From positions 1-38,390 of the forward strand of contig JAQBNO010000005.1 of NCBI GenBank assembly GCA_028288485.1: 38,390 nucleotides of DNA. Direction: 5' to 3'. Source of the DNA: Segetibacter sp. (lineage in GTDB: Bacteria > Bacteroidota > Bacteroidia > Chitinophagales > Chitinophagaceae). Of this stretch, positions 901-19,755 are shown in pieces (the stretch's first letter is position 1; the number at the start of each line of letters is the position of its first letter). Below the pieces are notes generated by a model. The model was not told where the DNA came from, did no database searches, and worked only from the letters and a program-made list of their open reading frames with translations. A program made the position numbers and the translations under genes.

Positions 901-965
901 CAAAGCTATCGTTGTAGTACCCGGCATAATATGTTGCAGAACATTGAGAAAAGTGATTGTCGTCA
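901..965 (-). promoter_or_regulatory. Regulated promoter of the yceI-like gene (Crp/Fnr-type site plus -7 box)
   Basis: On the minus strand the palindrome TGACGACAATCA (bases 965-954) is followed by the Bacteroidota -7 element TAGCTTTG (bases 908-901). The palindrome centre (959.5) is 58.5 bases from the last base of the -7 box, the same spacing as in five other promoters of this window. The start codon lies 55 bases beyond the box. Binding by a Crp/Fnr-family activator is inferred. Confidence 0.75.
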
Positions 966-1116
966 TATAACACGACGGGTAAAAGGTGAGCGGGATATCA
1001 GGAACAATTTCACTCTTATTGAAGGCCGCGGGAGAAGTGTGTGGCTTTGCAGCTGCGAGATGTACCAAGAGAAATACTGATTTGGGAGCCGCCTTCAAAC
1101 CTTTTTTGTTCCATTT

Positions 1117-1136
1117 GTTGCGTCGCACTCTTGTAC
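1117..1136 (+). repeat. Dispersed intergenic repeat, copy 1
   Basis: This is a perfect copy of the 20-base core gttgcgtcgcactcttgtac. The same core occurs at 12122-12141, at 6236-6255 (inverted) and with one change at 27516-27535. All copies lie between genes. Confidence 0.85.
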
Positions 1137-1360
1137 TCTAGGTAATTCTAAGAGTCATTGAAGACTTGTCGCCGGAGCCCTTACAGCTTTTGGGTAAGGC
1201 GTGAACTCCTACTACAATCGATGCTGCTGTATCCCGACCTCCTCGATTCGACTAAGATTTTGACGACGACCAATAGCAGTATCGTAAATAAATAAAATCG
1301 ACGGGGTAAAGGAACTACACCGGATAGCTGAATGGGATTGAGGAAATGTTTCTGAAAATT

Positions 1361-2068
1361 CTAATGGCAGGAAATAGCGCTTTGGGTTGTATTAGTCATG
1401 CCAGGACTTAAATAAGGTATGCCTAAACCCATTCCTCTTACAATAAGCAATACACCCATTAAAGCGACCACAAAAGGAACCGCTTTTTTAATGGCATTGC
1501 GGGTTGTTATGCTGATAAGAAAACCAAAATAAGAAAGAAGAAACATAGCCGGGAATGTACCAACGCCAAAGGCTGCCATAAAAGTTGTGGCGCCAGTAAT
1601 TGTACCCGCAGCCAAAGCCCCGGTAATGGCTAAATAAACGAGGCCGCAAGGCAAAAGCCCGTTTGCCATGCCGAGTAGGAAAATACTTGCGAAGGAAGGC
1701 TTTAGAAGAAACCTACCAATTAATTTTTGAACAAACAAGTTAACTTGTTTAAAGCCAGGTAAATGAAAGACTGGCGATCCTACATAAGATTGGATTACAA
1801 TTACCAGGATTGAGGCACCTGCTATTATTGAAAACCATTGCTGCAATCCGCCCACATATATTTGCCTGCCTGCTATTCCAAATAACATTCCAAAAAAAGC
1901 GTAAGTAAGTATTCGACCAGTATTGTATAACAAAATACCGGCAATTTTTTTAGCAGGTGAAAGAGACTGGGTAGGTAGTGAAAATGCTATTGCTCCGCAC
2001 ATTCCTACGCAATGAAAGCTGCTTAGTAACCCAAGACTGAAAGCGGTTATGAAAATTTGCCAGCTCAT
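1361..2068 (-). CDS. TauE/SafE-like (COG2836-type) membrane protein of the cco cluster
   Basis: The 235-residue protein has about six hydrophobic segments. It begins with the signature SLGLLSSFHCVGMCGAIAF and has a second half-repeat, LLGMANGLLPCGLVYLAI. These paired Cys-containing membrane motifs are typical of the small sulfite-exporter/DsbD-like family that sits at the end of cbb3 operons in many Bacteroidota and epsilonproteobacteria. It is thought to help copper or haem delivery during oxidase assembly; the precise role is not established. Its ATG overlaps the ccoH stop by one base (TAATG), so the two genes are translationally coupled. Lengths and motifs look complete. Confidence 0.85.
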   Translation of the reverse strand: MSWQIFITAFSLGLLSSFHCVGMCGAIAFSLPTQSLSPAKKIAGILLYNTGRILTYAFFGMLFGIAGRQIYVGGLQQWFSIIAGASILVIVIQSYVGSPVFHLPGFKQVNLFVQKLIGRFLLKPSFASIFLLGMANGLLPCGLVYLAITGALAAGTITGATTFMAAFGVGTFPAMFLLSYFGFLISITTRNAIKKAVPFVVALMGVLLIVRGMGLGIPYLSPGMTNTTQSAISCH

Positions 2069-2502
2069 TATTTTACTAGCAGGCTTTGTTCGTTATAAAA
2101 TTTATCGTTGCCCGTTTGCCAGTTCAGCTTTAACTGGTAATTTGTTTTTGCAAGCTTTCGTTTGTCTATCAACATCTTCCCGTCTTCATTAACCACTACC
2201 GGTATCTTACGGTCGTTCGATGCGTTGGTGACACAATAAAACCACAGTTGTCCGCTGGTTGCCAGGCCGTTCAACTCTTTTGGTAATTGGACGGAGACTT
2301 CTTCTCCTGTTTGGCCTATTTGAACCGTGGTGAGCTTGTTCGCATTGTTCACACCATCTATTTTATCCTGGTAACGCAACTCGTCATTGTAATAGTCTTT
2401 TGAGACCAGTTCAAAATTCTGGTTCATGCAGTTGTATACCAACGTACTCATAAGTACTGCGAACAGGATGAATACTATGATTAATTTATTTCCCCAGGTC
2501 AT
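2068..2502 (-). CDS. ccoH: FixH/CcoH-family cbb3 oxidase assembly protein
   Basis: The 144-residue protein has one N-terminal transmembrane anchor (about residues 6-25). A periplasmic domain follows, with the family-typical start after the anchor, LVSKDYYNDELRYQDKID, and a C-terminal beta-rich part ending YQLKLNWQTGNDKFYNEQSL. FixH/CcoH proteins associate with cbb3 oxidase and are needed for stable assembly. Here the gene is separated from ccoG by the inserted ORF6N gene and has its own promoter (2522-2586). The downstream TauE/SafE-like gene overlaps it by one base. The family assignment is firm; the gene symbol follows the cluster. Confidence 0.88.
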   Translation of the reverse strand: MTWGNKLIIVFILFAVLMSTLVYNCMNQNFELVSKDYYNDELRYQDKIDGVNNANKLTTVQIGQTGEEVSVQLPKELNGLATSGQLWFYCVTNASNDRKIPVVVNEDGKMLIDKRKLAKTNYQLKLNWQTGNDKFYNEQSLLVK

Positions 2503-2521
2503 GTCGGTATTTATATTTTTA

Positions 2522-2586
2522 CAAAACTATAGATAGTAAAAAACGAAGAACTGAACGGTGGTCAGGTGAAAACATGAGATTGGTCA
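2522..2586 (-). promoter_or_regulatory. Regulated promoter of ccoH
   Basis: On the minus strand TGACCAATCTCA (2586-2575) precedes the -7 box TAGTTTTG (2529-2522). The palindrome centre, 2580.5, is 58.5 bases from the end of the box, and the site ends 73 bases before the ATG. A second TGACCACC half-site lies between them near 2558-2565. This promoter lets the ccoH part of the cluster be controlled independently despite the intervening ORF6N gene. Confidence 0.82.
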
Positions 2587-2684
2587 GTATTTTTGCCACA
2601 GACGAAGGCTGTATGCGGAGAATTACGATTTCGAGAGTGACCACGATTGAATTACCTTAACAAGAAAAAGCAACCGAAGGACAT

Positions 2685-3233: not shown

Positions 3234-3248
3234 TTGCTGTTGTTAATT

Positions 3249-4667
3249 CTAATGTCCTACGGGCCCTAAAAAATTCGTTTTCACAACTTCAATTTGCTTC
3301 TCGCCTTCATACAAGCCCAGCTTTAATTCGCTCTTCCTGTCATGGATATCTTTCCTCGGTAATACAATGAAGAAAGAACCACTCCCCTGCCCTTCTTTTG
3401 CAACATCGATAAACGGCTTCCCAATTATTTCAACCTTACCTTTTGCATCTTCCAGTTTTATAGTTAAGGGGATTTGGCTTAGTGTTTTATTTGCCAGTTT
3501 AATATTATACAAGTTAGATACACTGTCGGTTCCTCTTTCCTGGAACAGGATGCCGGGTGTTCGCATAATTGTGGCATCAATATCTTTTCTGGTAAACAAA
3601 ATGACAGACAAAATAACTACAACAAGCGTACACAAACCTGTATACATTTTCATTCTCGAAGTGTACTTCAAAGGCTCTCCTTTTTCGATACTGTTTTCGC
3701 TTGCATAGCGGATTAAACCCTGCGGCTTGCCTATTTTATCCATGATGTTGTCGCATGCATCAATACAGGCGGTACAACCAACACATTCCATTTGAACGCC
3801 ATCGCGAATATCAATACCAGTTGGACAAACTTTTACACAGGCAAAACAATCAATACAATCGCCGAAAACATTATCTGTATTTTTTTTCCCTAATCCCCTT
3901 GGTTCGCCTCTTTTGTAATCATAGGCAACAACCATTGAGTTCTTATCAAGCAACACTCCTTGCAAGCGGCCATAAGGACAAACAACCGTACAAACCTGCT
4001 CGCGGAAAAAGGCATATACGCCATAAAAAACACCACTAAAAACCAGTAAAGAAGCAAAGCCGCCAATATGGGCAGTTAAAGGTTCTGTAATAATTTTTTC
4101 AAGCTCCTTTACGCCGATGATGTAAGAAAGAAAAAAATTGGCAATGATGAATGAAAGCAGGTAAAATGCGAGGTGCTTTGTTGTTTTCTTTAGTATCTTT
4201 TTACTGTTCCATGGTGCATTAGCCAGCATTTTTTGATGTGCTGCATCTCCTTCAATCCAATACTCTACTTTACGAAACATCATTTCCATGAAGTTAGTTT
4301 GCGGGCAGGCCCAGCCACAAAACAACCTTCCGAAAGCTGCCGTAAACAGGATGATAAAAAAGATGAACGTTATCATTCCGAGCCCGAGAATAAAAAAATC
4401 CTGTGGCCAGAATAGTTTACCAAACAAAATAAATTTAGCTTCTGTAACATTAAAAAGAAACAATGGGCGCCCGTTTACCTGGACGAACGGCAAACCAAAG
4501 AATGCAAGGAAATAAAACAAGCTGAGGTACGTGCGGATCTTATAAAACTTACCTTTTGGCTTCTGTGCATAAATCCAGTTACGCTTACCTTTTTCGTCAA
4601 CAGTAGCAATATGGTCACGAAAGCTTTCTGTACTTTTTTGTTGTATCTTCTTTGTTGCTGTTATCAT
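3249..4667 (-). CDS. ccoG: CcoG (FixG/RdxA) membrane ferredoxin for cbb3 oxidase assembly
   Basis: The 472-residue polytopic protein has a CGWACPQTNF motif at about residue 117 and a second VVCPYGR motif near 229. A two-cluster 4Fe-4S ferredoxin segment lies at about 271-305 (CIDCFACVKVCP and CVGCTACIDAC). An immunoglobulin-like C-terminal domain follows a final membrane helix near residue 345. CcoG is thought to reduce Cu(II) to Cu(I) for the CuB site of cbb3 oxidase. The gene follows ccoP by three bases, so the two are one operon. All cysteine motifs are present and the length is normal. Confidence 0.95.
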   Translation of the reverse strand: MITATKKIQQKSTESFRDHIATVDEKGKRNWIYAQKPKGKFYKIRTYLSLFYFLAFFGLPFVQVNGRPLFLFNVTEAKFILFGKLFWPQDFFILGLGMITFIFFIILFTAAFGRLFCGWACPQTNFMEMMFRKVEYWIEGDAAHQKMLANAPWNSKKILKKTTKHLAFYLLSFIIANFFLSYIIGVKELEKIITEPLTAHIGGFASLLVFSGVFYGVYAFFREQVCTVVCPYGRLQGVLLDKNSMVVAYDYKRGEPRGLGKKNTDNVFGDCIDCFACVKVCPTGIDIRDGVQMECVGCTACIDACDNIMDKIGKPQGLIRYASENSIEKGEPLKYTSRMKMYTGLCTLVVVILSVILFTRKDIDATIMRTPGILFQERGTDSVSNLYNIKLANKTLSQIPLTIKLEDAKGKVEIIGKPFIDVAKEGQGSGSFFIVLPRKDIHDRKSELKLGLYEGEKQIEVVKTNFLGPVGH

Positions 4668-4670
4668 CTT

Positions 4671-5849
4671 TTACCTTATTGCCAGCTTTCTGTCGGCAGT
4701 GTTTATTGAACCGGTTGTAGCTGTTGCTTCGTCTTTAAATAATTCACCTTGCGGCTCTTTTGCATTGGCAGGTTTAGTACCCTGAAGTGATTTTATATAA
4801 CTGGTTATTTGCGCAAGCTGAACGGGGCTGAAATCGTCTTTCCACGACTTCATTCCTTTTTCAGGAATACCATATTTAATCGTTTTAAAAACATCTTTTA
4901 CTGATCCTTTATAAAGCCAGTAATCATCTGTTAAGTTTGGTCCCACAACTCCCTGTCCTTCGGCTCCGTGACAAGGCGCACAAGATGAGCCGAAAAGCTT
5001 TTTACCTTCACCCAAATCTGTTGCGTCTGTTAATAATGTTACTGTAGTCTCATCTACCTTATTAGCAGAACTCTTTAAATATTCTGCTTTTTCTTTTTCT
5101 GCATCTGCAACAGCTATCTCGTACTCCTGTATGGTTGAAGGCGCAGAATGAGAAACGTGAAACCTATAGATATAGATAAAGCTAAATAGGATACATGCAT
5201 AAAAGCCGTACAGCCACCATGGCGGCAGGTTGTTATCCAATTCGACAATGCCATCATAATTATGATCAAGTGCCAACGCCTTTTCTTCGTGAACGGGCCG
5301 AAAACTGTTCATTTTAGCCCACCATTTTTTCCATGCCGGTTCTTTTGCTGCCCGCAGTTCAACGGCCACTTCTGCTTTTTCTTTCGCAATCAGTTGTTGT
5401 ACGAAATATAACATTCCCAGCATGATGATTACTTCAAGTGCTATTACACCGGTTAGCAGGTAGAAAGAACCTTTCGACATGCCACCAATAGTAGTGCTTA
5501 CTACTTCCAGTGTTGTCTTTTCGTCGGTGGTACCTTCACCTGCAAAAGCTACAGGTGTAATAAGGCATAAACCGGCAATCATAACTGCCTTCGCTGCTGA
5601 AGTTGAAGCTTTTGTCCGCTCTTTCAACCGGTCTAAATAATATTGTGCTGCGCCGATTAAAACCGATCCTAACATGCCTATTACCAGCATTAAAACGCAT
5701 GCAACTGTTATCAATATCATAGTTACGCCATTAGCCGGTGCGGAAGATTGCGGAGCATCTGCAGCGAATACATTGGCAGTTGAAACTGTTGCACAAAGGC
5801 CCAGTAATGCCATACTTTTTAATCGTTGTTTTCTACCTAAGGATTTCAT
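4671..5849 (-). CDS. ccoP: cbb3 oxidase subunit III, CcoP, with one cytochrome c domain
   Basis: The 392-residue protein starts with a signal-like segment ending VFAADAP. Membrane helices follow near residues 42-70, 88-104 and 128-153, then the conserved CcoP segment around 187-233 (DHNYDGIVELDNNLPPWW plus a helix). One class I cytochrome c domain has its haem motif CAPCH at 290-294 and a likely axial Met in EKGMKSW. Proteobacterial CcoP has two haem domains; a single one is seen here. The extra N-terminal hydrophobic part resembles a CcoQ-like or signal extension. It passes electrons to the CcoN catalytic centre. It lies between ccoQ and ccoG in the operon. Confidence 0.93.
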   Translation of the reverse strand: MKSLGRKQRLKSMALLGLCATVSTANVFAADAPQSSAPANGVTMILITVACVLMLVIGMLGSVLIGAAQYYLDRLKERTKASTSAAKAVMIAGLCLITPVAFAGEGTTDEKTTLEVVSTTIGGMSKGSFYLLTGVIALEVIIMLGMLYFVQQLIAKEKAEVAVELRAAKEPAWKKWWAKMNSFRPVHEEKALALDHNYDGIVELDNNLPPWWLYGFYACILFSFIYIYRFHVSHSAPSTIQEYEIAVADAEKEKAEYLKSSANKVDETTVTLLTDATDLGEGKKLFGSSCAPCHGAEGQGVVGPNLTDDYWLYKGSVKDVFKTIKYGIPEKGMKSWKDDFSPVQLAQITSYIKSLQGTKPANAKEPQGELFKDEATATTGSINTADRKLAIR

Positions 5850-5867
5850 TATTATAAATATTGACAG

Positions 5868-6041
5868 TTAATTATTGATTCCTTCGTCTAAAGGAATATT
5901 GCTCAATTTCTTAATGAGGCCTTTATCAGCACCCAAAGCCCATAAAGTCATAATCACAAAAAAGGTAAAGAAGATGAGGAAAGAGGTCATTGCATATACA
6001 TCTACCCCGGTTATTTTTTCTAAATAGTTTATAAATTTCAT
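5868..6041 (-). CDS. ccoQ: CcoQ/FixQ-like small cbb3 oxidase subunit
   Basis: A 57-residue protein with one transmembrane helix (about residues 17-34) starts MKFINYLEKITGVDVYAM. An upstream in-frame ATG at 6068 would add nine residues. I chose the internal ATG because an unusually strong Shine-Dalgarno sequence (AGGAGG, six bases before ATG) sits immediately in front of it; the longer start would also fall inside the hairpin at 6053-6080. CcoQ stabilises the cbb3 complex. Position between ccoNO and ccoP supports the call. Sequence conservation in this family is low, so the assignment rests on size, topology and context. Confidence 0.82.
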   Translation of the reverse strand: MKFINYLEKITGVDVYAMTSFLIFFTFFVIMTLWALGADKGLIKKLSNIPLDEGINN

Positions 6042-6052
6042 AAAAACCCTCC

Positions 6053-6080
6053 TAAAGTCCTCCCTCACGGGAGGACTTTA
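6053..6080 (-). promoter_or_regulatory. Perfect 12-bp intercistronic hairpin in front of ccoQ
   Basis: The arms TAAAGTCCTCCC and GGGAGGACTTTA are perfect reverse complements around a four-base loop. In the mRNA the 3' arm ends just before the ccoQ Shine-Dalgarno AGGAGG, and the CCUCC of the 5' arm could also pair with that Shine-Dalgarno. No U-run follows, so this is not a classical terminator. An RNA-stability, processing or translation-control element between ccoNO and ccoQ is plausible. Confidence 0.7.
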
Positions 6081-6178
6081 AAAGCCGCTCCCGTTCCGGA
6101 GATTTGTGTTTATTTAATTATTATTATTGTTAGCGAACAATCTGTTATTAATTGAGCTTTGTTGTGTAACACACTGTA

Positions 6179-6200
6179 CTGCGTCTTCTTCGTGACGCAG
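6179..6200. repeat. Short inverted repeat between ccoNO and ccoQ
   Basis: The arms CTGCGTC (6179-6185) and GACGCAG (6194-6200) are perfect complements around an eight-base spacer. The element lies in the 230-base space between ccoNO and the ccoQ hairpin, next to a dispersed repeat copy. It may be a weak RNA hairpin; the function is unknown. Confidence 0.45.
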
Positions 6201-6235
6201 TGGTTCAAAAAGAAAAGCAGCGTAAAGATTTGCCA

Positions 6236-6255
6236 GTACAAGAGTGCGACGCAAC
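6236..6255 (-). repeat. Dispersed intergenic repeat, copy 2 (inverted)
   Basis: This is a perfect minus-strand copy of the core gttgcgtcgcactcttgtac, inside the cco operon between ccoNO and ccoQ. An open frame over 6110-6304 translates the repeat and a T-rich region and is not treated as a gene. Confidence 0.85.
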
Positions 6256-6315
6256 GGATGTATAAAAAAGCTATGTAGCCGACTACCAAAAAAGTCATAT
6301 ACACCTTGCTCCTTA

Positions 6316-8517
6316 TTATTTTACAGAAGCAGTTGGTTGTTTCGACTCTGCTTTAATATCGGTTCCTACACGCTGCAGGTAAGCAATCATTGCTACTATC
6401 TCACTTGTGGCTGAAGCTTCGAGTTTATCTTTTTTCAGGCTTGCTTTTATCTTATTTCCTTGTGCTACCAGATCTGCATTGGCTACTTTATCATAACCTG
6501 CAGGATAAGGAACACCGAGCGTTTGCATAGCTCTTATTTTAGCACCTGTGATTGTGGTATCAACTTTATCATCTAGTAACCAGGGGTAAGAAGGCATAAT
6601 AGAACCAGGCGACATAATACGCGGATCTAACATGTGGTTGTAGTGCCAGCTATCAGGGTACTTTCCGCCAATGCGTGCAAGATCAGGTCCGGTTCTTTTA
6701 CTACCCCACTGGAAGGGATGGTCGTAAACAAATTCACCTGCTTTGCTATACTCACCATACCGGGCAACCTCATCTCTGAAAGGACGGATCATTTGGGAGT
6801 GACAGGTGTAACAACCTTCACGAACATAGATGTCGCGCCCCTGTAACTCAAGCGGAGTATAGGGCTTAACGGCGGTGATAGTAGGGATATTACTCTTTAT
6901 CAGGAACGTTGGAACGATCTCCAGAATACCTCCTATTGCAACTGCCACCAGGCTAAATACCAGCATTTGTACTGGTCGTCTTTCAATCCACCGGTGCCAG
7001 TGCTGCTTTCCGTGGGTTTCAATTACTTTAGGAAGCGGGGCAGCTTCGGCAGCTTCATTGGCAACAAGGCTTCCTGCAGCAACAGTTTTGTAAATATTAT
7101 AAACCATTACAAACACGCCGGCAAGGTAAAGTGTGCCACCAAGGCTACGCATTATGTACATCGGCAAAATATTGGTAACCGTTTCTAAAAACTGGAACTT
7201 AAGTTGTCCTTCTTCTGTGAATGTTCTCCACATCATGCTTTGTGTAAAACCTGCCCAGTATAAAGGAACAGCATAGAGAACAATACCTATAGTACCGATC
7301 CAGAAGTGTGTATTTGCAAGTTTCTTAGAGTATAGTTTAGTACTGAATATTTTTGGAATGATCCAGTAAATAACACCAAATGTTAAGAAGCCGTTCCAGC
7401 CTAAAGCGCCAACATGTACGTGAGCAACGATCCAGTCGGTATAGTGCGCAACTGCATTTACGTTTTTCAGGCTTAATAAAGGACCTTCAAAAGTTGCCAT
7501 ACCATAACACGTTACCGCTACTACCAGGAATTTTAAAATAGGATCTTCCCTTACTTTATCCCATGCACCTCTTAAGGTGAACAAACCGTTCAGCATTCCA
7601 CCCCAGCTGGGTGCAATAAGCATAACGCTAAATACAACACCGAGGCTTTGCGCCCAATCGGGCAAAGCAGTATATAACAAGTGGTGAGGACCGGCCCAGA
7701 TATAAATGAATATTAACGCCCAGAAGTGAATAATAGACAAGCGATAACTATACACAGGCCTGTTAGCAGCTTTAGGCAGGAAGTAATACATCATGCCGAG
7801 GTAAGGTGTTGTAAGGAAGAATGCAACGGCATTGTGCCCGTACCACCACTGAACCAAAGCATCCTGAACGCCGGCATACCAGCTATAGCTCTTGAGAAGT
7901 GTAAACGGAATTTCGAAAGAGTTTACAATATGCAACATGGCAACAGTAACCCAGGTAGCAATGTAGAACCAGATAGCGACGTATAAATGACTTTCGCGGC
8001 GTTTTATAATGGTCGCAAACATGTTGTACCCAAAAACAACCCAGACAATAGTAATGGCAATGTCAATAGGCCATTCCAACTCAGCATATTCTTTACCTGT
8101 TGTATAGCCTGCCAACAAGGTTATTGCTGCGGCAACGATTATTAACTGCCATCCCCAGAAGTGGAATTTGCTAAGTTTGTCGCTATACATTCTTGCTTTG
8201 CACAAACGCTGCAGAGAGTAGTAAACACCCATGAAAATGCCGTTGCCTACAAAAGCAAAAATTACGGCATTGGTATGTACCGGCCGTACCCTTCCAAAGG
8301 TTGTAGGTGCAAGGTCGAAATTCGCCCCGGGGTAGAAAAGCTGGATGGAAGCAAGCAAACCGGCAAGCATACCTACAACTCCCCAAATAATGGTAGCATA
8401 AGTAAACATCTTTACAATGTTGTTGTCGTAATAGAACCGGTCCACCTGAACAGGTATCTTTTTTTGCAGCGGCTTCGGTAGTTCTTCAAATTCTGTTGTA
8501 AGGGAATGGTCTGGCAT
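6316..8517 (-). CDS. ccoNO: Fused cbb3 oxidase subunits I and II (CcoN-CcoO)
   Basis: The 733-residue protein joins the catalytic haem-copper subunit (about 1-490) to the monohaem cytochrome c subunit (about 510-725). In the first part I see 12 or more membrane helices, a low-spin haem His in RPVHTN (81), CuB ligands His228 (WWYGHNAVAF) and His278-His279 (WAGPHHL), and haem ligands around His366-His368 (VAHVHVGALGW). In the second part an anchor helix (about 517-540) is followed by haem motif CYTCH at 569-573, then SQMIRPFRDEVARYG and GTDIKAESKQP near the end. The enzyme reduces O2 to water at low oxygen and pumps protons. The fusion is common in Bacteroidota. It lies directly downstream of ccoS. 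Confidence 0.97.
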   Translation of the reverse strand: MPDHSLTTEFEELPKPLQKKIPVQVDRFYYDNNIVKMFTYATIIWGVVGMLAGLLASIQLFYPGANFDLAPTTFGRVRPVHTNAVIFAFVGNGIFMGVYYSLQRLCKARMYSDKLSKFHFWGWQLIIVAAAITLLAGYTTGKEYAELEWPIDIAITIVWVVFGYNMFATIIKRRESHLYVAIWFYIATWVTVAMLHIVNSFEIPFTLLKSYSWYAGVQDALVQWWYGHNAVAFFLTTPYLGMMYYFLPKAANRPVYSYRLSIIHFWALIFIYIWAGPHHLLYTALPDWAQSLGVVFSVMLIAPSWGGMLNGLFTLRGAWDKVREDPILKFLVVAVTCYGMATFEGPLLSLKNVNAVAHYTDWIVAHVHVGALGWNGFLTFGVIYWIIPKIFSTKLYSKKLANTHFWIGTIGIVLYAVPLYWAGFTQSMMWRTFTEEGQLKFQFLETVTNILPMYIMRSLGGTLYLAGVFVMVYNIYKTVAAGSLVANEAAEAAPLPKVIETHGKQHWHRWIERRPVQMLVFSLVAVAIGGILEIVPTFLIKSNIPTITAVKPYTPLELQGRDIYVREGCYTCHSQMIRPFRDEVARYGEYSKAGEFVYDHPFQWGSKRTGPDLARIGGKYPDSWHYNHMLDPRIMSPGSIMPSYPWLLDDKVDTTITGAKIRAMQTLGVPYPAGYDKVANADLVAQGNKIKASLKKDKLEASATSEIVAMIAYLQRVGTDIKAESKQPTASVK

Positions 8518-8710: not shown

Positions 8711-8775
8711 CAAAAGTAGAAGAAGAACAAGGGGTAATCTTTGATGTTACTCAAGCGGGTGTATGATTGTGGTCA
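8711..8775 (-). promoter_or_regulatory. Regulated promoter of the ccoS-NO-Q-P-G operon
   Basis: On the minus strand TGACCACAATCA (8775-8764) precedes the -7 box TACTTTTG (8718-8711). The palindrome centre, 8769.5, is 58.5 bases from the end of the box. The site ends 73 bases before the ATG, exactly as at ccoH. This is expected to be the main oxygen-regulated promoter of the oxidase. Confidence 0.85.
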
Positions 8776-9541: not shown

Positions 9542-11938
9542 CTACTTCAACCCCATCTTCCAGGCGGCCAGGTTACTCGTTCCAAAGGTTATTAATAAAA
9601 TACTTAAGCTGCTTGCAGGCATCAAAATAGCAGCAATCATAGGCGATAAATTTCCCTGAACCGAAAAGTAGATACCAACCAGGTTGTAGATAATTGAAAT
9701 AATGAAACTTGCAATGACGACCCGTTTATTAATCTTACAAAGTTTAATAAACTTATACAGCATTGGTAATTGATCTGCTTCAATAATTGCATCGCTTGCA
9801 GGAGTGAAATTGTTGGCATTATCACTTACTGCAATTCCAACATTTGCCTGTTTCAGCGCTCCCGCGTCATTTAAACCATCACCCACCATGATCACTTTTT
9901 TGCCTTGGTCCTGCATTTGTTTGATCACATCCAGTTTATCGGAAGGGTTTTGGTGAAACAGGATGTGTGCTTTGTCACCTATTATATTTTTTAGAAAGTC
10001 TTTTTCGCCTGCATTATCACCGCTCAGAACTGAAAGCGGATATCTCTTTTTCAATTGCGAGATCAAAGGCAAAATGTTCTCCCGGTAATGATTTTTAAAT
10101 ATAAACTTGCCTAAAAATTTCTCTTCAATACCAACGTAAACCGCCGTTTCTTCTGCCATTTCTTCAGTCCCTACCACAAACTTTTTTGAGCCGATGGTTA
10201 TAAGGTCATCTCCTACTATTCCTTCAATTCCCTTTCCCGGCTCCTCTGTATAACCGGTAATTTTTGAAATTAATTTTTTCCCCAAAAATAAAGCTACCGC
10301 TTTACTCATTGGGTGGGTTGAGTGAGAAGCAAGCAAAGCGATCTTTTTCTTCTGAAGGTTGGTTAATGGCTGGCCTTCATATTCAATATCCTGGTACGTT
10401 CCCGTTGTTAAAGTGCCTGTTTTATCAAATACGATATGATCTGCATTGGCTATTTCTTCAATAGTTTGTGCATTACGGAGGTAAAATTTATTACTGCTTA
10501 GTAATCGTAATACGTTCCCATTTGTAAAAGTATTGCTCAACAGCAAAGCACACGGACAAGCAATGATCAATACAGCAGTAACGCTGGTCCAGATTTTTGA
10601 AGCATCATAATAAGACCAGTAAAGTGACGTTATAGCCGCAATGGCAAAAACGCCCCAGGTAAAATACCTGCTTGTGAGGTGAACAAAAGACTGCTTGTTA
10701 TCATTTTTATCCTGCTTCAGTTCATCCCGGTTCCAAAGCTTTGTAAGATAACTTTGTGCAACTTCTTTAATAACCAGCATTTCAATGTTGCTTCCTGTTT
10801 GTTTGCCTCCTGCATAAACTATTTCTCCCATTTCTTTGGCAACAGGTAAACTTTCACCTGTAACAAAACTGTAATCTATTAATGCACTGCCCCTGGTTAA
10901 AATTCCATCCGCAGGTATCAACTCCTGGTTGTGTATTAATAAAGTGTTGTTTAGTTTTATATCAGGTAAGGCAACGGTTTCTTCGTTTTCCTTATTCACC
11001 CGTGTAACTGCTATTGGGAAATAAGAGGTATAATCGCGGTCGAAGCTCAACTGCTGGTAAGTTTTGTCTTGCAAGACCCGACCTATCAGCATAAAGAATA
11101 CAATGCCAGACATACTATCAAAATATCCTCCGCCTGTTGCGGAAAATACTTCGTACACGCTTCTTCCAAAAGTTACAAAGACAGCCAAAACTATAGGAGC
11201 ATCGATATTTAAAAACTTGCGTTTCAGGCTTTTCCACGCACTTACATAAAATTCAGAAGCACTGAAAAGGAAAACAGGAAGACTTAATATGAGGTTCAAA
11301 TATCGAAAAAGGCTTACCAGGTTTTGTTCCTTTACATCGATACCTAAATATTCAGGAAAGCTGAGCAGCATAATGTTTGCAAAACAAAAACCGGCAACTC
11401 CCAGCTTATAAATTTTTGATTTATTAAGGCCGGGCATTGCCTGCTTCATGTCGTTGAAGCTAATGTAAGGCTCATAACCGATACTAGTCAGTAATTCTGC
11501 AACCTCTCGCAAAGAGACTTGTTGATGATTAAAAATAATATCGGCTTCTTTTTTTGTGAAGTTTACTTTGCTGCCAATCACCTGCTCATTCAGCCTATGC
11601 AGGTTTTCAAGGAGCCATAAACAACTACTGCAATGCATTTGGGGAAGGTAAAACGAAACGTGTGTTTGTGTTTCATCGGTATAAGAGATGAGTGACTGCC
11701 TGATTTTATCATCATCCAAAAAAGCAAACTTGTCTTTCCTTACTTCTATCTTCCTGCTGCTGCCGGGATTTTTTGAAATGGCATAATAATCACACAACCC
11801 TCCCTGGTTCAAAATCTCGAACACCATTTTGCATCCCTCGCAGCAAAATTGCTTGTCCTGGCTAATGATCGGGTGTTTACCGCAGTCTTCCCCGCAATGG
11901 AAGCAGGCGGTTTGGTGATAAATAGTATGTGGCTTCAT
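9542..11938 (-). CDS. ccoI: CcoI/FixI copper-transporting P1B-type ATPase
   Basis: The 798-residue protein begins with a Cys-rich module (ACFHCGEDC at 11-19 and FCCEGCKMVF at 31-40). A heavy-metal-associated domain follows with MHCSSC at 101-106. Membrane helices, the TGES actuator motif (360-363), the metal-binding helix CPC (461-463), the phosphorylation motif DKTGT (Asp505) and the hinge GDGLND near the C-terminus are all present. This subfamily exports Cu(I) across the inner membrane for assembly of the cbb3 CuB centre. It has its own regulated promoter (11973-12037). It would normally abut ccoS, but about 850 bases of decayed inserted DNA now separate the two. Confidence 0.95.
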   Translation of the reverse strand: MKPHTIYHQTACFHCGEDCGKHPIISQDKQFCCEGCKMVFEILNQGGLCDYYAISKNPGSSRKIEVRKDKFAFLDDDKIRQSLISYTDETQTHVSFYLPQMHCSSCLWLLENLHRLNEQVIGSKVNFTKKEADIIFNHQQVSLREVAELLTSIGYEPYISFNDMKQAMPGLNKSKIYKLGVAGFCFANIMLLSFPEYLGIDVKEQNLVSLFRYLNLILSLPVFLFSASEFYVSAWKSLKRKFLNIDAPIVLAVFVTFGRSVYEVFSATGGGYFDSMSGIVFFMLIGRVLQDKTYQQLSFDRDYTSYFPIAVTRVNKENEETVALPDIKLNNTLLIHNQELIPADGILTRGSALIDYSFVTGESLPVAKEMGEIVYAGGKQTGSNIEMLVIKEVAQSYLTKLWNRDELKQDKNDNKQSFVHLTSRYFTWGVFAIAAITSLYWSYYDASKIWTSVTAVLIIACPCALLLSNTFTNGNVLRLLSSNKFYLRNAQTIEEIANADHIVFDKTGTLTTGTYQDIEYEGQPLTNLQKKKIALLASHSTHPMSKAVALFLGKKLISKITGYTEEPGKGIEGIVGDDLITIGSKKFVVGTEEMAEETAVYVGIEEKFLGKFIFKNHYRENILPLISQLKKRYPLSVLSGDNAGEKDFLKNIIGDKAHILFHQNPSDKLDVIKQMQDQGKKVIMVGDGLNDAGALKQANVGIAVSDNANNFTPASDAIIEADQLPMLYKFIKLCKINKRVVIASFIISIIYNLVGIYFSVQGNLSPMIAAILMPASSLSILLITFGTSNLAAWKMGLK

Positions 11939-11972: not shown

Positions 11973-12037
11973 CAAAATTATTTAAGATGTAACAGCGAAA
12001 CACTGATGATGAGCTTTTAGAAATATGACTATAGTCA
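11973..12037 (-). promoter_or_regulatory. Regulated promoter of ccoI
   Basis: The palindrome TGACTATAGTCA (12026-12037) is a perfect inverted repeat. On the minus strand it is followed by the -7 box TAATTTTG (11980-11973), 58.5 bases from palindrome centre to box end. It is the most symmetric of the six sites. Confidence 0.85.
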
Positions 12038-12453: not shown

Positions 12454-12518
12454 TGACGATAATCATATTTACAGTTGACCTAAACGCTTTTTTGAGGTTC
12501 TACACCGTAATAGTTTTG
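12454..12518 (+). promoter_or_regulatory. Regulated promoter of the 129-aa gene
   Basis: On the plus strand TGACGATAATCA (12454-12465) precedes the -7 box TAGTTTTG (12511-12518). The palindrome centre, 12459.5, is 58.5 bases from the end of the box. It shows the same architecture on the opposite strand, which argues against an artefact of local composition. Confidence 0.83.
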
Positions 12519-12574: not shown

Positions 12575-12964
12575 ATGAAACCAGTGAGTAAGGAATTAAT
12601 AATAAGTGGCTATAGTGTTGTCAGGGACATCCAAAAAGCTTTTAATTCACATTATCCTTTCCTGAAAATCGAGTTTTCAACTAACCCTAAAGGCGTTTTT
12701 TCTTTAAAAAAACATATGGTAAGCCCTGAAAGCAGTATGAGCAAAATAACGCACTTACCTACTCCTATACAACTAAATGTAGCGGAATATAGAACTGTTG
12801 CGGAAGTAGAAAAGGATTGCACCGAGTTCTTAGGATTATCGATGCAGGTATTCAGGAAATCAGGAAATGTTTGGAATGTCATCTCGCTTACCGACAGCTG
12901 GACCCTGGAAAGCCAGAATAACGCAGGAGAATTTATAAGTACAGAGATGGCCGCTGCTTCATAA
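12575..12964 (+). CDS. Uncharacterised 129-residue protein of the cbb3-linked regulon
   Basis: I do not recognise a named domain. The protein is soluble, with no signal peptide and no membrane segment. The N-terminus reads MKPVSKELIISGYSVVRDIQ. Motifs that look conserved are LPTPIQLNVAEYRTVAEVEK, GLSMQVFRKSGNVWNVISLT and DSWTLESQNNAGE. The pattern of a helix-rich first half and a short beta-rich second half (VEKDCTEFLGLSMQVFRKSG) suggests a compact fold. Its promoter (12454-12518) has the same architecture as the oxidase promoters, so a role in low-oxygen or respiratory stress physiology is inferred. A small cupin follows 60 bases downstream. Confidence 0.8.
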   Translation: MKPVSKELIISGYSVVRDIQKAFNSHYPFLKIEFSTNPKGVFSLKKHMVSPESSMSKITHLPTPIQLNVAEYRTVAEVEKDCTEFLGLSMQVFRKSGNVWNVISLTDSWTLESQNNAGEFISTEMAAAS

Positions 12965-14831: not shown

Positions 14832-14837
14832 GCTATA

Positions 14838-14883
14838 AAATTGAAAAGGGAGAAGCATTTGATAGCTTCTCCCTTTTCAATTT
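14838..14883. terminator. Strong bidirectional Rho-independent terminator
   Basis: Two perfect 19-base complementary arms (14838-14856 and 14865-14883) flank the loop atttgata. The stem begins with A/T-rich ends, giving AAA before and TTT after it in both directions. It lies just downstream of the ATPase pseudogene stop on the plus strand and downstream of the 15042-15356 gene on the minus strand. Confidence 0.88.
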
Positions 14884-15041
14884 CCTGTATGTAATCGGCA
14901 GAATAGGATGTTTCAACACCGTCGCTGGTATAGCCCGCTCTCTTTGGCCGCAGAAATTCTATTCCGCCAAACTAATGAACTGCGGTAAAATTATTTAAAT
15001 AAAAGGGGGACCCTACTCTACCTACAAAATAGTAAACGTTT

Positions 15042-15356: not shown

Positions 15357-15464
15357 AATGTAAAGTTCAGGAAATTTTGTTAACAAAAGTGTAGGATAAA
15401 TAGTTAAGGATTAAAAATCAGGCAAAAGTGCAAAAAAAGCAGCACAATGGTTTGCAGATGAACG

Positions 15465-15482
15465 GATTGCGACGCAACGATG
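15465..15482 (-). repeat. Dispersed intergenic repeat, partial copy
   Basis: The minus strand reads catcgttgcgtcgcaatc. This matches the first 15 bases of the 24-base repeat before diverging. It lies between the response regulator and the 104-aa gene. Confidence 0.6.
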
Positions 15483-15517
15483 ATCAATTAAAATGCTAAA
15501 GATGGTACCAAAAAAGA

Positions 15518-16573
15518 CTAATATGGTAAATTCCGCAATTTCTTCTCGTCAAGAACAACCACTTTTCCAGTTTGAATCTCTATCAGCTTTTCATCTTTAA
15601 AGTCGCCTAAAGTTCTTATTAGCGACTCGGTTGCAATGCCTATGGACTGGGCCATGTGCTCCCTTGATAAGTTTAACACCGGCTTTGGCTCTTCATTTAA
15701 TTTATACTTGTCGTACAACTGGATAAGGCCATATGCGACTTTTTTACGCAGGGAATTATAAGCGAGGTTGAGCAGGCTTTCCTCTTTTTCGACGATGTTC
15801 TGGGTAATGATCTTGATAAAACTTTGGGCAATCTGCATATCGTTTGACACAAGCTGCAGAAAATCTTCCTTTGGGATATGCATTAAAGTGGTTTCTTCCA
15901 AAACCTGCGCTTCATCTTTATAATTTTCATCTTCCAAAATGGAGGTATATCCAAAAAAGTCGCCCGGACCGTAGATGTTGGTGATGAATTCTTTGCCATC
16001 CTGGTTTGCTTTCGAAACTTTTACCTTGCCATCAACAACGTGGTATACCACTCTTGGGCGCTGGCCTTCTTTGTATAAAATATGCTTTTTATTGTACGTA
16101 TACACTTCCCTTTCGTCGCTGGTCAGCTGCACTTTGCCGGTTTGTTGCGCATGGGCCATAAATTCATTTAACGCTTCGGGTCCTGTGTACTGTTGTTTTA
16201 TTAACTCACTTTTTTTTAACCTTGTTTCGATAGCATTCAATAATTCTATTCCGTCGAAGGGCTTGGTAATGTAATCATCTGCGCCCATCTCCATTCCCCT
16301 TCTGAAATCGGCTTTCTCAGACTTAGCAGTCAGGAAAATAAAAGGAATGGAAGCTGTTTCCTTGTGTTTGCTCAGCAGGTGGTAAACGCCGTAACCGTCA
16401 AGTACCGGCATCATTATGTCGCAAACTACCAGGTCGGGTAGTTCTTTTAAAGCAAGCTCCACCCCTATTTTACCATTTTCTGCAGTAATTACCTTGTAGT
16501 TTGACAGTTCAATTATTTCTGCTGTGTTTTCGCGAACTTCTACATTGTCTTCAATTATTAAAATCTTTTTCAT
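15518..16573 (-). CDS. Response regulator with Crp/Fnr-type output (receiver + cNMP fold + wHTH)
   Basis: The 351-residue protein has three parts. Residues 1-120 are a CheY-like receiver: acidic pocket Glu8-Asp9, phospho-acceptor Asp52 in VVCDIMMPVLDG, Lys104 in TKPFDG. Residues 135-250 are a cyclic-nucleotide-binding fold (ILYKEGQRPRVVYHVVDGKV, YGPGDFFGY). Residues 265-345 are a Crp-type winged helix whose recognition helix contains MAQSIGIATESLIRTLGDF, with Glu316 and Arg320 at the positions that contact the TGA half-site in Crp and Fnr. There is no N-terminal Cys cluster, so it is not an Fe-S Fnr. It overlaps the kinase gene by four bases (ATGA), so the two form a two-component pair. It is the best candidate for the six TGAC-N5-TCA sites in this window. 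Confidence 0.93.
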   Translation of the reverse strand: MKKILIIEDNVEVRENTAEIIELSNYKVITAENGKIGVELALKELPDLVVCDIMMPVLDGYGVYHLLSKHKETASIPFIFLTAKSEKADFRRGMEMGADDYITKPFDGIELLNAIETRLKKSELIKQQYTGPEALNEFMAHAQQTGKVQLTSDEREVYTYNKKHILYKEGQRPRVVYHVVDGKVKVSKANQDGKEFITNIYGPGDFFGYTSILEDENYKDEAQVLEETTLMHIPKEDFLQLVSNDMQIAQSFIKIITQNIVEKEESLLNLAYNSLRKKVAYGLIQLYDKYKLNEEPKPVLNLSREHMAQSIGIATESLIRTLGDFKDEKLIEIQTGKVVVLDEKKLRNLPY

Positions 16574-17865
16574 AAGTCTTTTTGTGCTGCCGCAATGGGC
16601 TGGGGAATGTAAATGGTGAATGTAGAACCTTCATCTAATTTACTGGTCATTTCTATTCTTCCGTTCATTAGTTCAAGGTATTTAGTCACAATGTGCAGGC
16701 CCAGGCCAGTGCCCTGTATATTGACTGCATTTTTTGCGCGAAAGAAGCGTTCAAACAAATGTTGCTGGTCTTCCTCCGAAATCCCAATGCCATTATCCTG
16801 AACAGTAATTATAAAATGATTGTCATCAACAAAAGAAGTGACTCTGATAATGCCGTTTTCGGGGGAAAATTTAATTGCATTTGAAATGAGGTTTATCAAA
16901 ATATTGGTAACTAAATTAGTATCCAGACAAACTATTGTAACAACCGAATTTGTATAAACAATATGCTGCCCGTTTTTTAATAGAGCATCCATCTCCTGCA
17001 TTAAATTCTTAAATAAGCTGTCAATAATTGCGCGTGTAACCATTTTTATATTTGTTTGCACGTGCCCCTCTTCCAGCTTACCAAGCGAAAGGAAATCTTC
17101 CAGTATTCCTTTCATTCCGCTAACCGCACCCTTGATCCTCTGAATGTGTTTGTCAATCTTGGGATCGGGACTAAGCTCGTTGTATTTATCTAAAAGATAG
17201 GCGGATGTAAGAATAGTGCTCAAAGGAGTCCTGAATTCGTGCGATGCCATCGTAACAAACCTCGATTTTAGCTCGCTTAATTCTTTCTCCGTTTCAAAAG
17301 CCTCGTTCAGTTCCTCTTTCGACCTTTCGAGTTCAACCAATGCTTCGCGCAGCATTTTGGTACGGTCCCCTACTGTCTGTTCAAGTTCACTGTTCATTTT
17401 TTTTATTTCGGTTGTAACCATTTCCAGTTCCTGCTTTTGTTCAAGCACAACACCCTCCTGCTTTTTTCGAACCGTAATGTCGATAACAAAAGCAATTACG
17501 AAAGTTTCACCGTTAATGGAATAATGACTGAGGCTGACTTCAACAGGGAAAGTATTTCCGCTCTTATTCAGGGCAAAAAGGTCTCGCCCATGGCCCATCT
17601 CTCTTACCTCCGGGCTTTGATAATATTGTTCGCGGTATTTTACATGCCTTGCCTGCACCGCCTGGGGCAGAAGTGTATCCACAGTCTCGCCGATCAGTTC
17701 TTCCTTGCTATATCCAAACTGGTGCTCAGCAAACTTATTGAAATTTATTATTTTCCCTTCATGGTTTGTTACTACAATTCCAATCGTTGCATAGTTAAAA
17801 AGGGCTTCAAATTGTTCGGTATTGCTAATGTACCTTGATGCTAACTCCTCCCTGGTTTCTGCCAT
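16570..17865 (-). CDS. Soluble PAS-domain sensor histidine kinase, FixL-like candidate
   Basis: The 431-residue protein has no membrane segment. Domains: PAS about 15-132 (FNYATIGIVVTNHEGKIINF), a coiled coil about 135-200, HisKA with His209 in FVTMASHEFRTPLSTI, and HATPase about 310-425 (N-box LINLISNAIKFSP, VQDNGIGI, GTGLGLHIV). In the PAS, His74 (QARHVKY) and Arg94 (GHGRDL) fall where FixL has its proximal haem His and the O2-responsive Arg. This alignment is by eye, and the RHxxY pattern also occurs in non-haem PAS domains. The partner is the overlapping response regulator. A cytoplasmic oxygen, redox or gas sensor is inferred. Confidence 0.92.
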   Translation of the reverse strand: MAETREELASRYISNTEQFEALFNYATIGIVVTNHEGKIINFNKFAEHQFGYSKEELIGETVDTLLPQAVQARHVKYREQYYQSPEVREMGHGRDLFALNKSGNTFPVEVSLSHYSINGETFVIAFVIDITVRKKQEGVVLEQKQELEMVTTEIKKMNSELEQTVGDRTKMLREALVELERSKEELNEAFETEKELSELKSRFVTMASHEFRTPLSTILTSAYLLDKYNELSPDPKIDKHIQRIKGAVSGMKGILEDFLSLGKLEEGHVQTNIKMVTRAIIDSLFKNLMQEMDALLKNGQHIVYTNSVVTIVCLDTNLVTNILINLISNAIKFSPENGIIRVTSFVDDNHFIITVQDNGIGISEEDQQHLFERFFRAKNAVNIQGTGLGLHIVTKYLELMNGRIEMTSKLDEGSTFTIYIPQPIAAAQKDL

Positions 17866-17891
17866 TATTTGCCGTTTAGATTTCAGAAAAA

Positions 17892-18101
17892 CTACAGTAA
17901 ATTCCTGTACTTTCTGTATAAAGCTTTTGAAATCAAAAAATTAGCGGTTAACCAGCGAGCAAAAAAGTCAATTGCAAAACGGGAAGTGTATTGTTCCTTA
18001 AAATAGTTGGTGAACACGGTTAAGAATGAAAGAATGTTTTGGTAGTCAACACTACCTCTTAGTGCAACAGCCGTTGCTTCCGACAGGTCGGAGCGGTTCA
18101 T
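17892..18101 (-). CDS. Possible small protein between the stress protein and the kinase
   Basis: The open frame from 18137 overlaps the end of the universal stress gene. A more likely start is the ATG at 18101 (MNRSDLSEATAVALRGSVDY), giving 69 residues ending LYRKYRNLL. The composition is protein-like, with an amphipathic middle (ILSFLTVFTNYFKEQYTS). I know no family for it. It could be a real member of a uspA-orf-kinase-regulator operon, or untranslated spacer. The evidence is the open frame and the tight spacing (26 bases before the kinase start), nothing more. Confidence 0.35.
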   Translation of the reverse strand: MNRSDLSEATAVALRGSVDYQNILSFLTVFTNYFKEQYTSRFAIDFFARWLTANFLISKALYRKYRNLL

Positions 18102-18126
18102 CTGTTTGTTTTTATAGCAGCATTTC

Positions 18127-19005
18127 TTAAACTGCATACACCGCGTTCGTACTAATCAATTTATTCTCGGCATTTGTACTTTCGCTGATAATAGATGGAA
18201 TAATAAGTAAGGGCACGTGAGAATGAAATACCAGATCTTTCGTTACACTTCTGGTAAAAAGCCTTTCTATTAACGTGTGTTCATGCGGAATAACTGCGAC
18301 CATATCTACTGCATGTTGCTTTACAAAAGTATTCATTGCTTTTGCTACGTTATCTCCCTCAAGATACTCGAAAGTGTAATTTACAAATGAGAGAAAATCT
18401 TTCAGCCTTTCAGGCCGCACAAGTCTTTCAACTGCCTGGTCCATCGACTTTTTAATAACCTTGACAATAAACACCCTGGAATTGAAATTTAGTGCGAGTT
18501 TTTTAAACGGCTTAAGGATATGAATATCAGAATCTTCGTTGATATCGCTTGCGAGTGCAATGGTTTTTGGAATAGAAAATGCTGCTTCTTCAGGCACAAC
18601 GATTACCGGGATGAAAGATTTTTTACATAAATAGGTAACTGTACTACCAAAAAATTTCCTCATTTCTCTTCCGCTTCCTTTCATTCCAACAATAATGTAG
18701 GCTGCGTTTTTTTCTTCCGCAACGGCAAGTATAGAATCGGTGATGGGCCCGTTGTAGCATTCTGTTTCAAGCGCTACAGTTCTTAACGGATCTAGGGCTT
18801 CCGCCTCTTCCAATAACTTTTTAAAATACATCCGCTCGTTATCATCGGGCGAGATAAAAACAGATCCATCGGGATAAACTGCAGGTGCCTGGTATGCAGT
18901 AAACAAAACAACTTTCGCATGAATAGACTTTGCAAGTTTAAATCCATAGAGAGTTGCGGTACGTGCCGCAGCTGAAAAATCGGTGGCGATAAGAATAGTT
19001 TCCAT
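18127..19005 (-). CDS. Tandem-domain universal stress protein (UspA family)
   Basis: The 292-residue protein carries two Usp domains. The first begins METILIATDFSAAARTATLY and ends with the full ATP-binding signature G-2X-G-9X-G(S/T) in GMKGSGREMRKFFGST. The second (about 150-280) ends RSVTKDLVFHSHVPLLIIPS but lacks the glycine signature, so probably only the first domain binds nucleotide. Its promoter (19017-19081) has the same architecture as the cbb3 promoters. This parallels other bacteria in which stress proteins are induced with low-oxygen respiration. The -7 box lies only 12 bases from the ATG, so the leader must be very short. Confidence 0.92.
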   Translation of the reverse strand: METILIATDFSAAARTATLYGFKLAKSIHAKVVLFTAYQAPAVYPDGSVFISPDDNERMYFKKLLEEAEALDPLRTVALETECYNGPITDSILAVAEEKNAAYIIVGMKGSGREMRKFFGSTVTYLCKKSFIPVIVVPEEAAFSIPKTIALASDINEDSDIHILKPFKKLALNFNSRVFIVKVIKKSMDQAVERLVRPERLKDFLSFVNYTFEYLEGDNVAKAMNTFVKQHAVDMVAVIPHEHTLIERLFTRSVTKDLVFHSHVPLLIIPSIISESTNAENKLISTNAVYAV

Positions 19006-19755
19006 AGCTTTTTTTTCAAAACTACTTTCCCGCCTTTGTGATTCTTATGCCTGAAGTTACCGCAGGTTATGACATTGGTCAGTTTTTATTGCTAAACAAC
19101 ACCACCACGTAGCTAAGATTGACCCAAGCAGCGTGGAAATCCCCATATGAAGTTTACTTGTTTGTATTAATCATGTTTAAAATGAATTTTCTCCAGCCAC
19201 CTTTTCCGGCTAAAGATTTACCAATGTGGGCACAAAAGGATAATCAGGAATAACTCCACGGTCTTTGTTTCTTCCTGTTATGGCAAAAGGATGACAAACG
19301 AAGGAAGTATGGGTAGTGCGATCTTGCTGCTTGGCAAATTAAGATCAAGGCGATGCGTTGGGCCACCCCGGGCAGCAAAGCCTGCTGTTTTTGAGTGCCT
19401 GTTTTTTTCAACCAGAATAGCAGGAAACTAACAATAAATCCTGATTGCACCAGGCAAAATAATCGTTTGAAAAAAGCCGGAAGCAAAAATTATGAATGAC
19501 CCGTTAGTGTAAATATCGGTAGGAATTTTTCGTCGTCTTATCGGTAAGGAAGTTATGGGAAAAATTAATAACTATATGAAAAGCTCTAACAGCATTTTCT
19601 GGCGGAACAACAAAAAGGTATGGACAGAAAGATAATTTCGCAGCCGTAAAAACGCCGGATCACATCTCCTCAACAATGGGAATAGTTACCGGATTAAGAA
19701 AAAGTTGTTTAATTTATGTTTCAATCTGCATTTTCATTAAGTATCTTCAAATCTT
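19006..19755. other. Intergenic region, no gene seen beyond the uspA promoter
   Basis: The first 80 bases hold the regulated uspA promoter. The rest (about 19085-19755) has no frame with recognisable protein features. A weak hairpin, CAGCA-aagcc-TGCTG followed by TTTTT, lies near 19373-19392. I see nothing else that I can name. Confidence 0.55.
19017..19081 (-). promoter_or_regulatory. Regulated promoter of the universal stress gene
   Basis: On the minus strand TGACCAATGTCA (19081-19070), a near-perfect palindrome with TGAC and GTCA ends, precedes the -7 box TAGTTTTG (19024-19017). The centre, 19075.5, is 58.5 bases from the box end, identical to the other five promoters. Confidence 0.85.

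Follow-up and report, generated by a model that had tools for sequence, protein, structure and literature searches.

In rhizobia the FixL-FixJ-FixK system joins a PAS kinase, a response regulator and a Crp-fold activator to the control of the cbb3 oxidase genes (fixNOQP), and the FNR, ANR and FnrL regulons carry TGA-N6-TCA sites before microaerobic genes, with universal stress proteins (Usp) and the cbb3 oxidase among the targets. A site at -41.5, which is the classical class II position in Escherichia coli, together with a second site upstream characterizes the class II/III promoters of E. coli Crp, and the mycobacterial DosR-DosS/T system is a two-component hypoxia regulon with many Usp and Hsp20 genes. 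How environmental Bacteroidota regulate their genes has been mapped poorly, and the promoters of this group depart from the E. coli model. According to the available parts of the respective reports, the sigma-A box TAnnTTTG of Flavobacterium psychrophilum lies at -12 to -5 and its cbb3 oxidase is induced under oxygen limitation (PMC9723704), a variant hFixL-FxkR-FixK of the rhizobial cascade exists (PMC7888657), and a Crp/Fnr motif survey with Bacteroidota bins predicts Crp/Fnr-family regulons, with cbb3 as a target in other phyla (PMC8510549). Here we describe a double-site promoter code in 38,390 nucleotides of Segetibacter sp. DNA (contig JAQBNO010000005.1 of assembly GCA_028288485.1, positions 1 to 38,390; hereafter the window), for which the evidence strongly supports a real code of a Crp/Fnr-type activator, serving a microaerobic regulon that includes the activator's own likely gene.

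The first-pass annotation of the window had proposed six promoters in which a TGAC-N5-TCA palindrome stands at one fixed distance from the box TAnnTTTG. All six pairs were confirmed in coordinates, strand and sequence, with 45 base pairs (bp) between palindrome and box in every pair (Table 1), and a search of both strands for TGA-N6-TCA followed by TAnnTTTG at gaps of 0-120 gave eight pairs, six of them at gap 45. The count at this gap in 300 dinucleotide-preserving shuffles of the window averaged 0.013 (maximum 1), and thus the earlier estimate of about 0.005 chance pairs per window was of the right order. The same pair was then scanned at gaps 30-60 through the whole genome (6.375 Mb in 220 contigs), with 56 matches listed: 17 at gap 45, 4 at gap 46 and 5 at gap 49, the average for the 30 gaps other than 45 being 1.3. 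Since one further match, C142:884, entered under gap 42, pairs at gap 45 too, the total at this gap is 18. Only one of the 18 (C213) lies inside an open reading frame (ORF) of at least 150 amino acids (aa), against 8 of the 15 other-gap matches tested out of about 38, the remainder being without a locus or close to a contig end; the paired motif is therefore not as frequent in coding sequence as upstream of genes. An ORF of at least 60 aa begins on the same strand within about 300 bases of 17 of the 18 sites, C213 included, and the site on C91 is followed by no such ORF before the contig ends. Two of the gap-46 pairs differ in appearance (TGATnTACATCA; C13:51223-51288 on the minus strand and C208:909-974 on the plus strand, loci L045 and L044 of this genome, G000). 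Both precede strong YceI genes, similar forms recur in G049 (three) and G174 (two), and they are possibly the code of another regulator.

In order to examine the spacer, the six key letters TGA...TCA were scored at each spacer offset of the 18 sites. At an offset of 22 the sum reached 66, with at least 4 of 6 letters present in 14 of the 18 promoters, whereas the 33 other offsets gave sums of at most 44 and such scores in at most 2 of the 18; none of 20,000 spacer shuffles attained the signal at offset 22. All six window promoters score at least 3 of 6 at this place, and across the sites of this genome TCA, the right half, is the better preserved of the two halves. The sites on C91, C206 and C213 score 0, 2 and 0 of 6; they include the coding site, number about what chance predicts, and are probably chance matches of the kind expected at any gap. 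The promoters are double: 14 of the 18 carry, 22 bp closer to the box, a further Crp/Fnr-type site that in this genome is mostly degenerate.

The double structure is seen in related loci too. A contig scan yielded at least 584 relatives of the regulator protein described below, of which the best 80 (52-87% identical; 1.378 Mb of sequence) were kept; these belong to Chitinophagaceae and to further Bacteroidota, and the nearest of them come from metagenome-assembled genomes of Segetibacter. Exact palindromes stand before the box 75 times at gap 45 and 63 times at gap 23, each of the remaining 119 gaps having 0-5 (mean about 1), and the control palindromes AGT-N6-ACT, ACT-N6-AGT and TCA-N6-TGA are absent at gap 45. 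An exact site stands at one place or at both in 89 promoters, namely at both in 49, at the distal place only in 26 and at the proximal only in 14, the TCA at positions 32-34 being kept at 85-88% in the 26 distal-only promoters; 7 of the 89 fall inside ORFs of at least 150 aa. These loci are not independent, as they contain near-duplicates (e.g. L066/L072, L064/L069 and L084/L109), and in L071, L095, L100 and L115 one double site lies between two divergent promoters and was hence counted twice. Such shared double sites occur also in G292 and G064, and in L071, L095 and L100 the site is flanked by a cytochrome c gene and, on its other side, by an Rrf2-type regulator gene. As a separate observation, ACT-N6-AGT precedes TAnnTTTG at gap 47 six times in loci L047-L126, against about 0.3 at other gaps.

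In the 63 gap-23 pairs the proximal centre lies 36.5 bases before the last base of the box, and a box end at -5 would place it at -41.5. With the F. psychrophilum numbering the two centres would thus fall at -63.5 and -41.5, and the 22 bp between them correspond to two helical turns. The earlier proposal of a low-oxygen Crp/Fnr-type regulon under class I activation is well supported as to the type of site, the fixed geometry and the microaerobic genes. Plain class I activation at one site is set aside, because most promoters bear a further site, its centre 22 bp downstream at the presumed class II position, which stands out at a single offset both in this genome and in the related loci.

The genes behind the six promoters were named largely as before, namely YceI, FixH/CcoH, a P-type ATPase that is CcoI by context, a 129-aa ORF without family, and Usp; the third promoter, previously given to ccoS, is that of ccoNO, a putative short ccoS-like gene between box and ccoNO having its start seen in the sequence alone. 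In the genome as a whole the targets are cco/fix, YceI-like, several Usp, baeRF3-type and Zn-ADH genes and the regulator operons. The 89 related promoters, with target clusters named from one representative each, precede genes for CcoNO (13), cytochrome c (10), Hsp20 (7), relatives of the 129-aa ORF (7), Usp (6), the kinase (5), CcoI (4), DoxX-type proteins (4), YceI (3), Rrf2 (3), ScdA-hemerythrin (2), PNPOx-type proteins (2) and relatives of a 157-aa ORF (2), one unknown pair, and 11 single genes including PFOR, NosZ, ferritin-like and flavodoxin-type; 8 have no ORF found. This list is one of microaerobic and stress functions, and cbb3, cytochromes c, Usp and Hsp20 fit a response to low oxygen.

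Neither the second site nor the operon of a candidate regulator in the same window had been recorded in the first-pass annotation. Behind the sixth promoter, in one direction, follow genes for Usp, an 81-aa ORF, a PAS-HisKA-HATPase kinase and a 351-aa protein, the frames of the last two sharing 4 bases, with identical spacing in 15 related pairs. The 351-aa protein matches the receiver domain (REC) PF00072 at residues 4-116 with 93.9 bits, the cyclic nucleotide monophosphate (cNMP)-binding domain PF00027 with 75.8 bits and the Crp-type helix-turn-helix (HTH) HTH_Crp_2, PF13545, with 48.4 bits; it thus combines the cNMP-binding fold and HTH of the Crp/Fnr superfamily with the phospho-acceptor Asp and the Lys of a response regulator, D52 and K104 being present in 81 of 81 sequences, as are E316 and R320. 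It differs from FNR, with its N-terminal iron-sulphur and central cysteines, as its single Cys lies in the receiver (the Crp part has no Cys in 53 of 81 relatives, one in 22 and two or three in 6), from the free-standing FixK without receiver, its Crp half reaching 72 bits against the NCBIfam FixK model NF050806 with a cut-off of 300, and from the FixJ/NarL type, its output being HTH_Crp_2 and not a LuxR/GerE-type HTH. No NCBIfam model exceeded its own cut-off among the best 25 of 107 matches. The AlphaFold model has mostly confident domains of uncertain relative placement (mean predicted local distance difference test score 83.9; predicted template-modelling (TM) score 0.61) and matches Crp and FNR chains with E down to 1.8e-15, with poor superposition as a whole (root-mean-square deviation about 15-20, query TM-score about 0.3); no solved chain spanning receiver and Crp halves was found among the best 60 of 314 structure matches.

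In 63 of the 80 loci the gene immediately upstream of the regulator encodes a kinase similar to that of the window. Chitinophaga rupis (L084) and Longitalea luteola (L060), both cultured, are examples that combine the regulator, the adjoining kinase and sites ahead of cco genes. The PAS domain of the window kinase matches the solved heme domains of FixL (9.2e-15) and DosP (1.2e-11), and 63 of 64 kinases keep a His at the place of the FixL heme His, by hand alignment to the FixL sequence; a heme-type His is also present in heme-free PAS domains. In 7 of the 80 loci a double site begins 12-112 bases past the regulator gene and on the strand of that gene, a position found by coordinates in G122, G214, G099, G002, G025, G174 and G222, and kinase genes are preceded by sites in 5 of the 89 related promoters. 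The genome encodes a second regulator, 85% identical and with its own kinase, on contig C39 downstream of a gap-45 promoter. The final 37 codons of this C39 regulator recur at the end of contig C9 (G000), so that C9 and C39 are probably neighbours and the site on C9 is part of this second locus. Another Crp-like match, C200 (locus L034, G000), was dropped as a candidate, its gene appearing broken by frame changes.

Table 1. Promoter elements and genes of the double-site regulon in the window
Feature	Position	Strand	Basis or remark
Distal Crp/Fnr-type site, yceI promoter	954..965	-	sequence
Proximal degenerate site, yceI promoter	932..943	-	4/6 key bases
TAGCTTTG box, yceI promoter	901..908	-	sequence
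YceI-like gene	250..846	-	PF04264, 51 bits
Distal site, fixH/ccoH promoter	2575..2586	-	sequence
Proximal degenerate site, fixH/ccoH promoter	2553..2564	-	4/6 key bases
TAGTTTTG box, fixH/ccoH promoter	2522..2529	-	sequence
FixH/CcoH gene, then DsbD_2-type gene	1361..2502	-	family match
Distal site, ccoNO promoter	8764..8775	-	sequence
Proximal perfect site, ccoNO promoter	8742..8753	-	6/6; only exact double site found in own genome
TACTTTTG box, ccoNO promoter	8711..8718	-	sequence
ccoNO fusion, ccoP-type and fixG-type genes	3249..8517	-	family matches
Distal site, P-type ATPase gene promoter	12026..12037	-	sequence
Proximal degenerate site, P-type ATPase promoter	12004..12015	-	4/6 key bases
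TAATTTTG box, P-type ATPase gene promoter	11973..11980	-	sequence
P-type ATPase, CcoI/FixI by context	9542..11938	-	family match and context
Distal site, promoter of 129-aa ORF	12454..12465	+	sequence
Proximal site, promoter of 129-aa ORF	12476..12487	+	3/6, weakest of six; left half TGAC present
TAGTTTTG box, promoter of 129-aa ORF	12511..12518	+	sequence
129-aa ORF without family	12575..12964	+	BLAST relatives behind 7/89 promoters of the related loci
Distal site, usp-kinase-regulator operon promoter	19070..19081	-	sequence
Proximal degenerate site, usp operon promoter	19048..19059	-	4/6 key bases
TAGTTTTG box, usp-kinase-regulator operon promoter	19017..19024	-	sequence
Universal stress protein, two Usp stretches	18127..19005	-	domain matches
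81-aa ORF in presumed operon	17892..18137	-	no NCBIfam match
PAS-HisKA-HATPase histidine kinase	16570..17865	-	PAS nearest FixL heme PAS among solved structures listed
Response regulator (receiver, cNMP-binding fold, Crp-type HTH); candidate regulon activator	15518..16573	-	domain matches

Proximal-site coordinates in Table 1 were derived arithmetically from the distal site, the exact site of ccoNO being also matched directly. Outside the regulon, a 90-aa ORF of the window (14559-14831, plus strand) matches the C-terminus of cation-transporting ATPases (PF00689), and with the 289-aa ORF preceding it (13690-14559) it is perhaps a decayed P-type ATPase.

The association of motif and regulator was examined in one draw of 296 genomes of the phylum, used for all motif and protein searches. 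At E 1e-45 the regulator was found in 43 genomes, all within the class of the window (43 of 73 sampled class genomes), and an FNR-type protein, searched at E 1e-30 in open frames below 300 aa, in 69. The exact double site occurs in 22 of the 296 genomes, with none for the reversed control patterns, and is present in 18 of 43 genomes with the regulator against 4 of 253 without (Fisher P 1e-13, kinship ignored). The relaxed double site occurs in 35 genomes, with one match for the control, and is present in 23 of 43 against 12 of 253, kinship again ignored; it is found in 13 of 24 genomes with both proteins and in 10 of 19 with the regulator only. The Segetibacter genome holds more relaxed sites (10) than any other. 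Among the proteins compared the regulator predicts the motif best, and FNR-type proteins predict it too.

From these findings we consider it probable that the double sites, the PAS kinase and the REC-Crp regulator together form one pathway to a low-oxygen regulon. The six sites of the first-pass annotation would be the distal halves of double activator sites. The FixL-like kinase would phosphorylate the response regulator, whose output is a Crp/FixK-type DNA-binding module, and phosphorylated dimers would bind TGA-N6-TCA at both places, 22 bp apart near -63.5 and -41.5, so bringing RNA polymerase and its main sigma factor to the TAnnTTTG box. Low oxygen, a signal inferred from the gene content and the FixL-like PAS domain, would in this way induce genes for the cbb3 oxidase and its assembly, for Usp and YceI among others, as well as the putative kinase-regulator operon itself. 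The regulator of these sites is more likely a REC-Crp response regulator, encoded with its PAS kinase in the window, than a free Crp/Fnr protein.

Several observations weigh against this picture. Exact proximal sites are the exception in the window (1 of 6), and no spike of exact palindromes at 23 bp was found in the genome, where gaps 8-38 gave this spacing in 3 of 25 matches. The regulator has no adjacent kinase in 17 of the 80 loci, some of them at contig ends, and by the same hand alignment to FixL the distal PAS position is Arg in just 37 of 64 kinases. Many genomes with the regulator have no relaxed (20 of 43) or no exact double site (25 of 43), and the association of the exact site loses strength when the class alone is taken, with 18 of 43 genomes against 2 of 30 (P 0.001, the genomes being non-independent). 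The Segetibacter genome also encodes an FNR-type protein, C172, with Cys at 7, 12, 15, 18 and 106, a set which we take to be FNR-like, and with Fnr as its best NCBIfam match (69.7 bits, below the cut-off of 228). Genomes with an FNR-type protein only carry the relaxed site in 8 of 45 cases, against 4 of 208 with neither protein, and the FNR-type proteins of G017, G150 and G271, each with several N-terminal cysteines, have the recognition helix ATESxIR in the first two and ATETTIR in the third. Because FNR-only genomes are enriched in the motif and the recognition helix recurs in two of the FNR-type proteins, the identity of the regulator as the REC-Crp protein is probable and not proved, and exclusive control by this protein was lowered in rank, since FNR-only genomes carry the motif.

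The alternative that survives best, though we regard it as somewhat doubtful, is that the FNR-type protein and the REC-Crp regulator both bind the double sites, direct and kinase-borne oxygen signals converging there. An E-S-x-I-R pattern is common to most REC-Crp proteins and the FNR-type proteins of G017 and G150, and the motif is enriched in either group of genomes and present in 13 of the 24 with both, yet the FNR-type protein of this genome has a diverged helix, YETTFR. Control by C172 alone, as an iron-sulphur regulator sensing oxygen directly, with the REC-Crp genes mere targets or acting elsewhere, is unlikely. The cysteines of C172 and the FNR-only enrichment speak for it, as does a site 28-88 bases behind the FNR-type gene, on its strand, in G126, G273 and G146; but regulator genomes without an FNR-type protein have exact (7) and relaxed (10) double sites, the sites sit at regulator operons, and this genome is the richest of all in relaxed sites, yet the helix of its C172 differs, the protein being 34% identical to that of G150. 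A reading of the second motif as a -33 type promoter element or half-site for RNA polymerase, and no activator site, would agree with its overlap with the -33 region as generally placed and with the better preserved right half; it appears very improbable, as the full palindrome is present in the 49 promoters with both sites and the proximal one alone is exact in 14. Chance or the copying of ancestral promoters may practically be dismissed, for in spite of the clustered cco genes and the repetition among near-relative loci the spacers differ in sequence, by eye and by column counts, at constant spacing, and the controls gave 0.013 in shuffles and 0 (exact) or 1 (relaxed) in the 296 genomes.

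A rigid double-site code with one control match in 296 genomes would allow candidate low-oxygen regulons to be read from sequence, and thus offers a simple search route to low-oxygen genes in a little-studied bacterial group. It also names a testable regulator and opens a way to study the contact between a Crp-type activator and the Bacteroidota polymerase. Among the matches listed in the open-access literature, taken as titles and abstract starts, there was no Crp-type response regulator, no such promoter code and no description of microaerobic Crp/Fnr regulation in Bacteroidota. The available parts of PMC9723704, PMC8510549, PMC9953108, PMC4618731 and PMC1183210 do not mention a receiver-Crp regulator; the Crp/Fnr survey (PMC8510549), in the same parts, concerns Flavobacteriales and Saprospiraceae bins and a MalR-type motif, and paired sites are likewise unmentioned.

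The regulon of Segetibacter thus shares one feature or another with each of the systems introduced above and differs from each. FNR, ANR and FnrL have the same type of site and similar targets, but the candidate regulator here has a single Cys, in the receiver. At E. coli class II/III promoters a -41.5 site is likewise accompanied by one upstream, whereas here, by the F. psychrophilum numbering, the upstream site would be at -63.5, in a fixed 22-bp pair before the Bacteroidota TAnnTTTG box. DosR is of the NarL/LuxR type; here the output is of the Crp type and the cbb3 oxidase is a main target. FixL-FixJ-FixK is similar in its components, but here a single protein unites the receiver with the Crp-type output, which would let the kinase address the activator without an intermediate, and the DNA sites are double. 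We tentatively suggest that much of the class of the window may use such a two-protein version of FixL-FixJ-FixK, in which an oxygen-sensing PAS kinase would act on a receiver-bearing Crp-type activator whose paired dimers, sharing one face of the DNA at -63.5 and -41.5, contact the TAnnTTTG-using polymerase, and that the iron-sulphur FNR may also read this code, one promoter architecture then serving two chemistries of sensing that substitute for one another from genus to genus.

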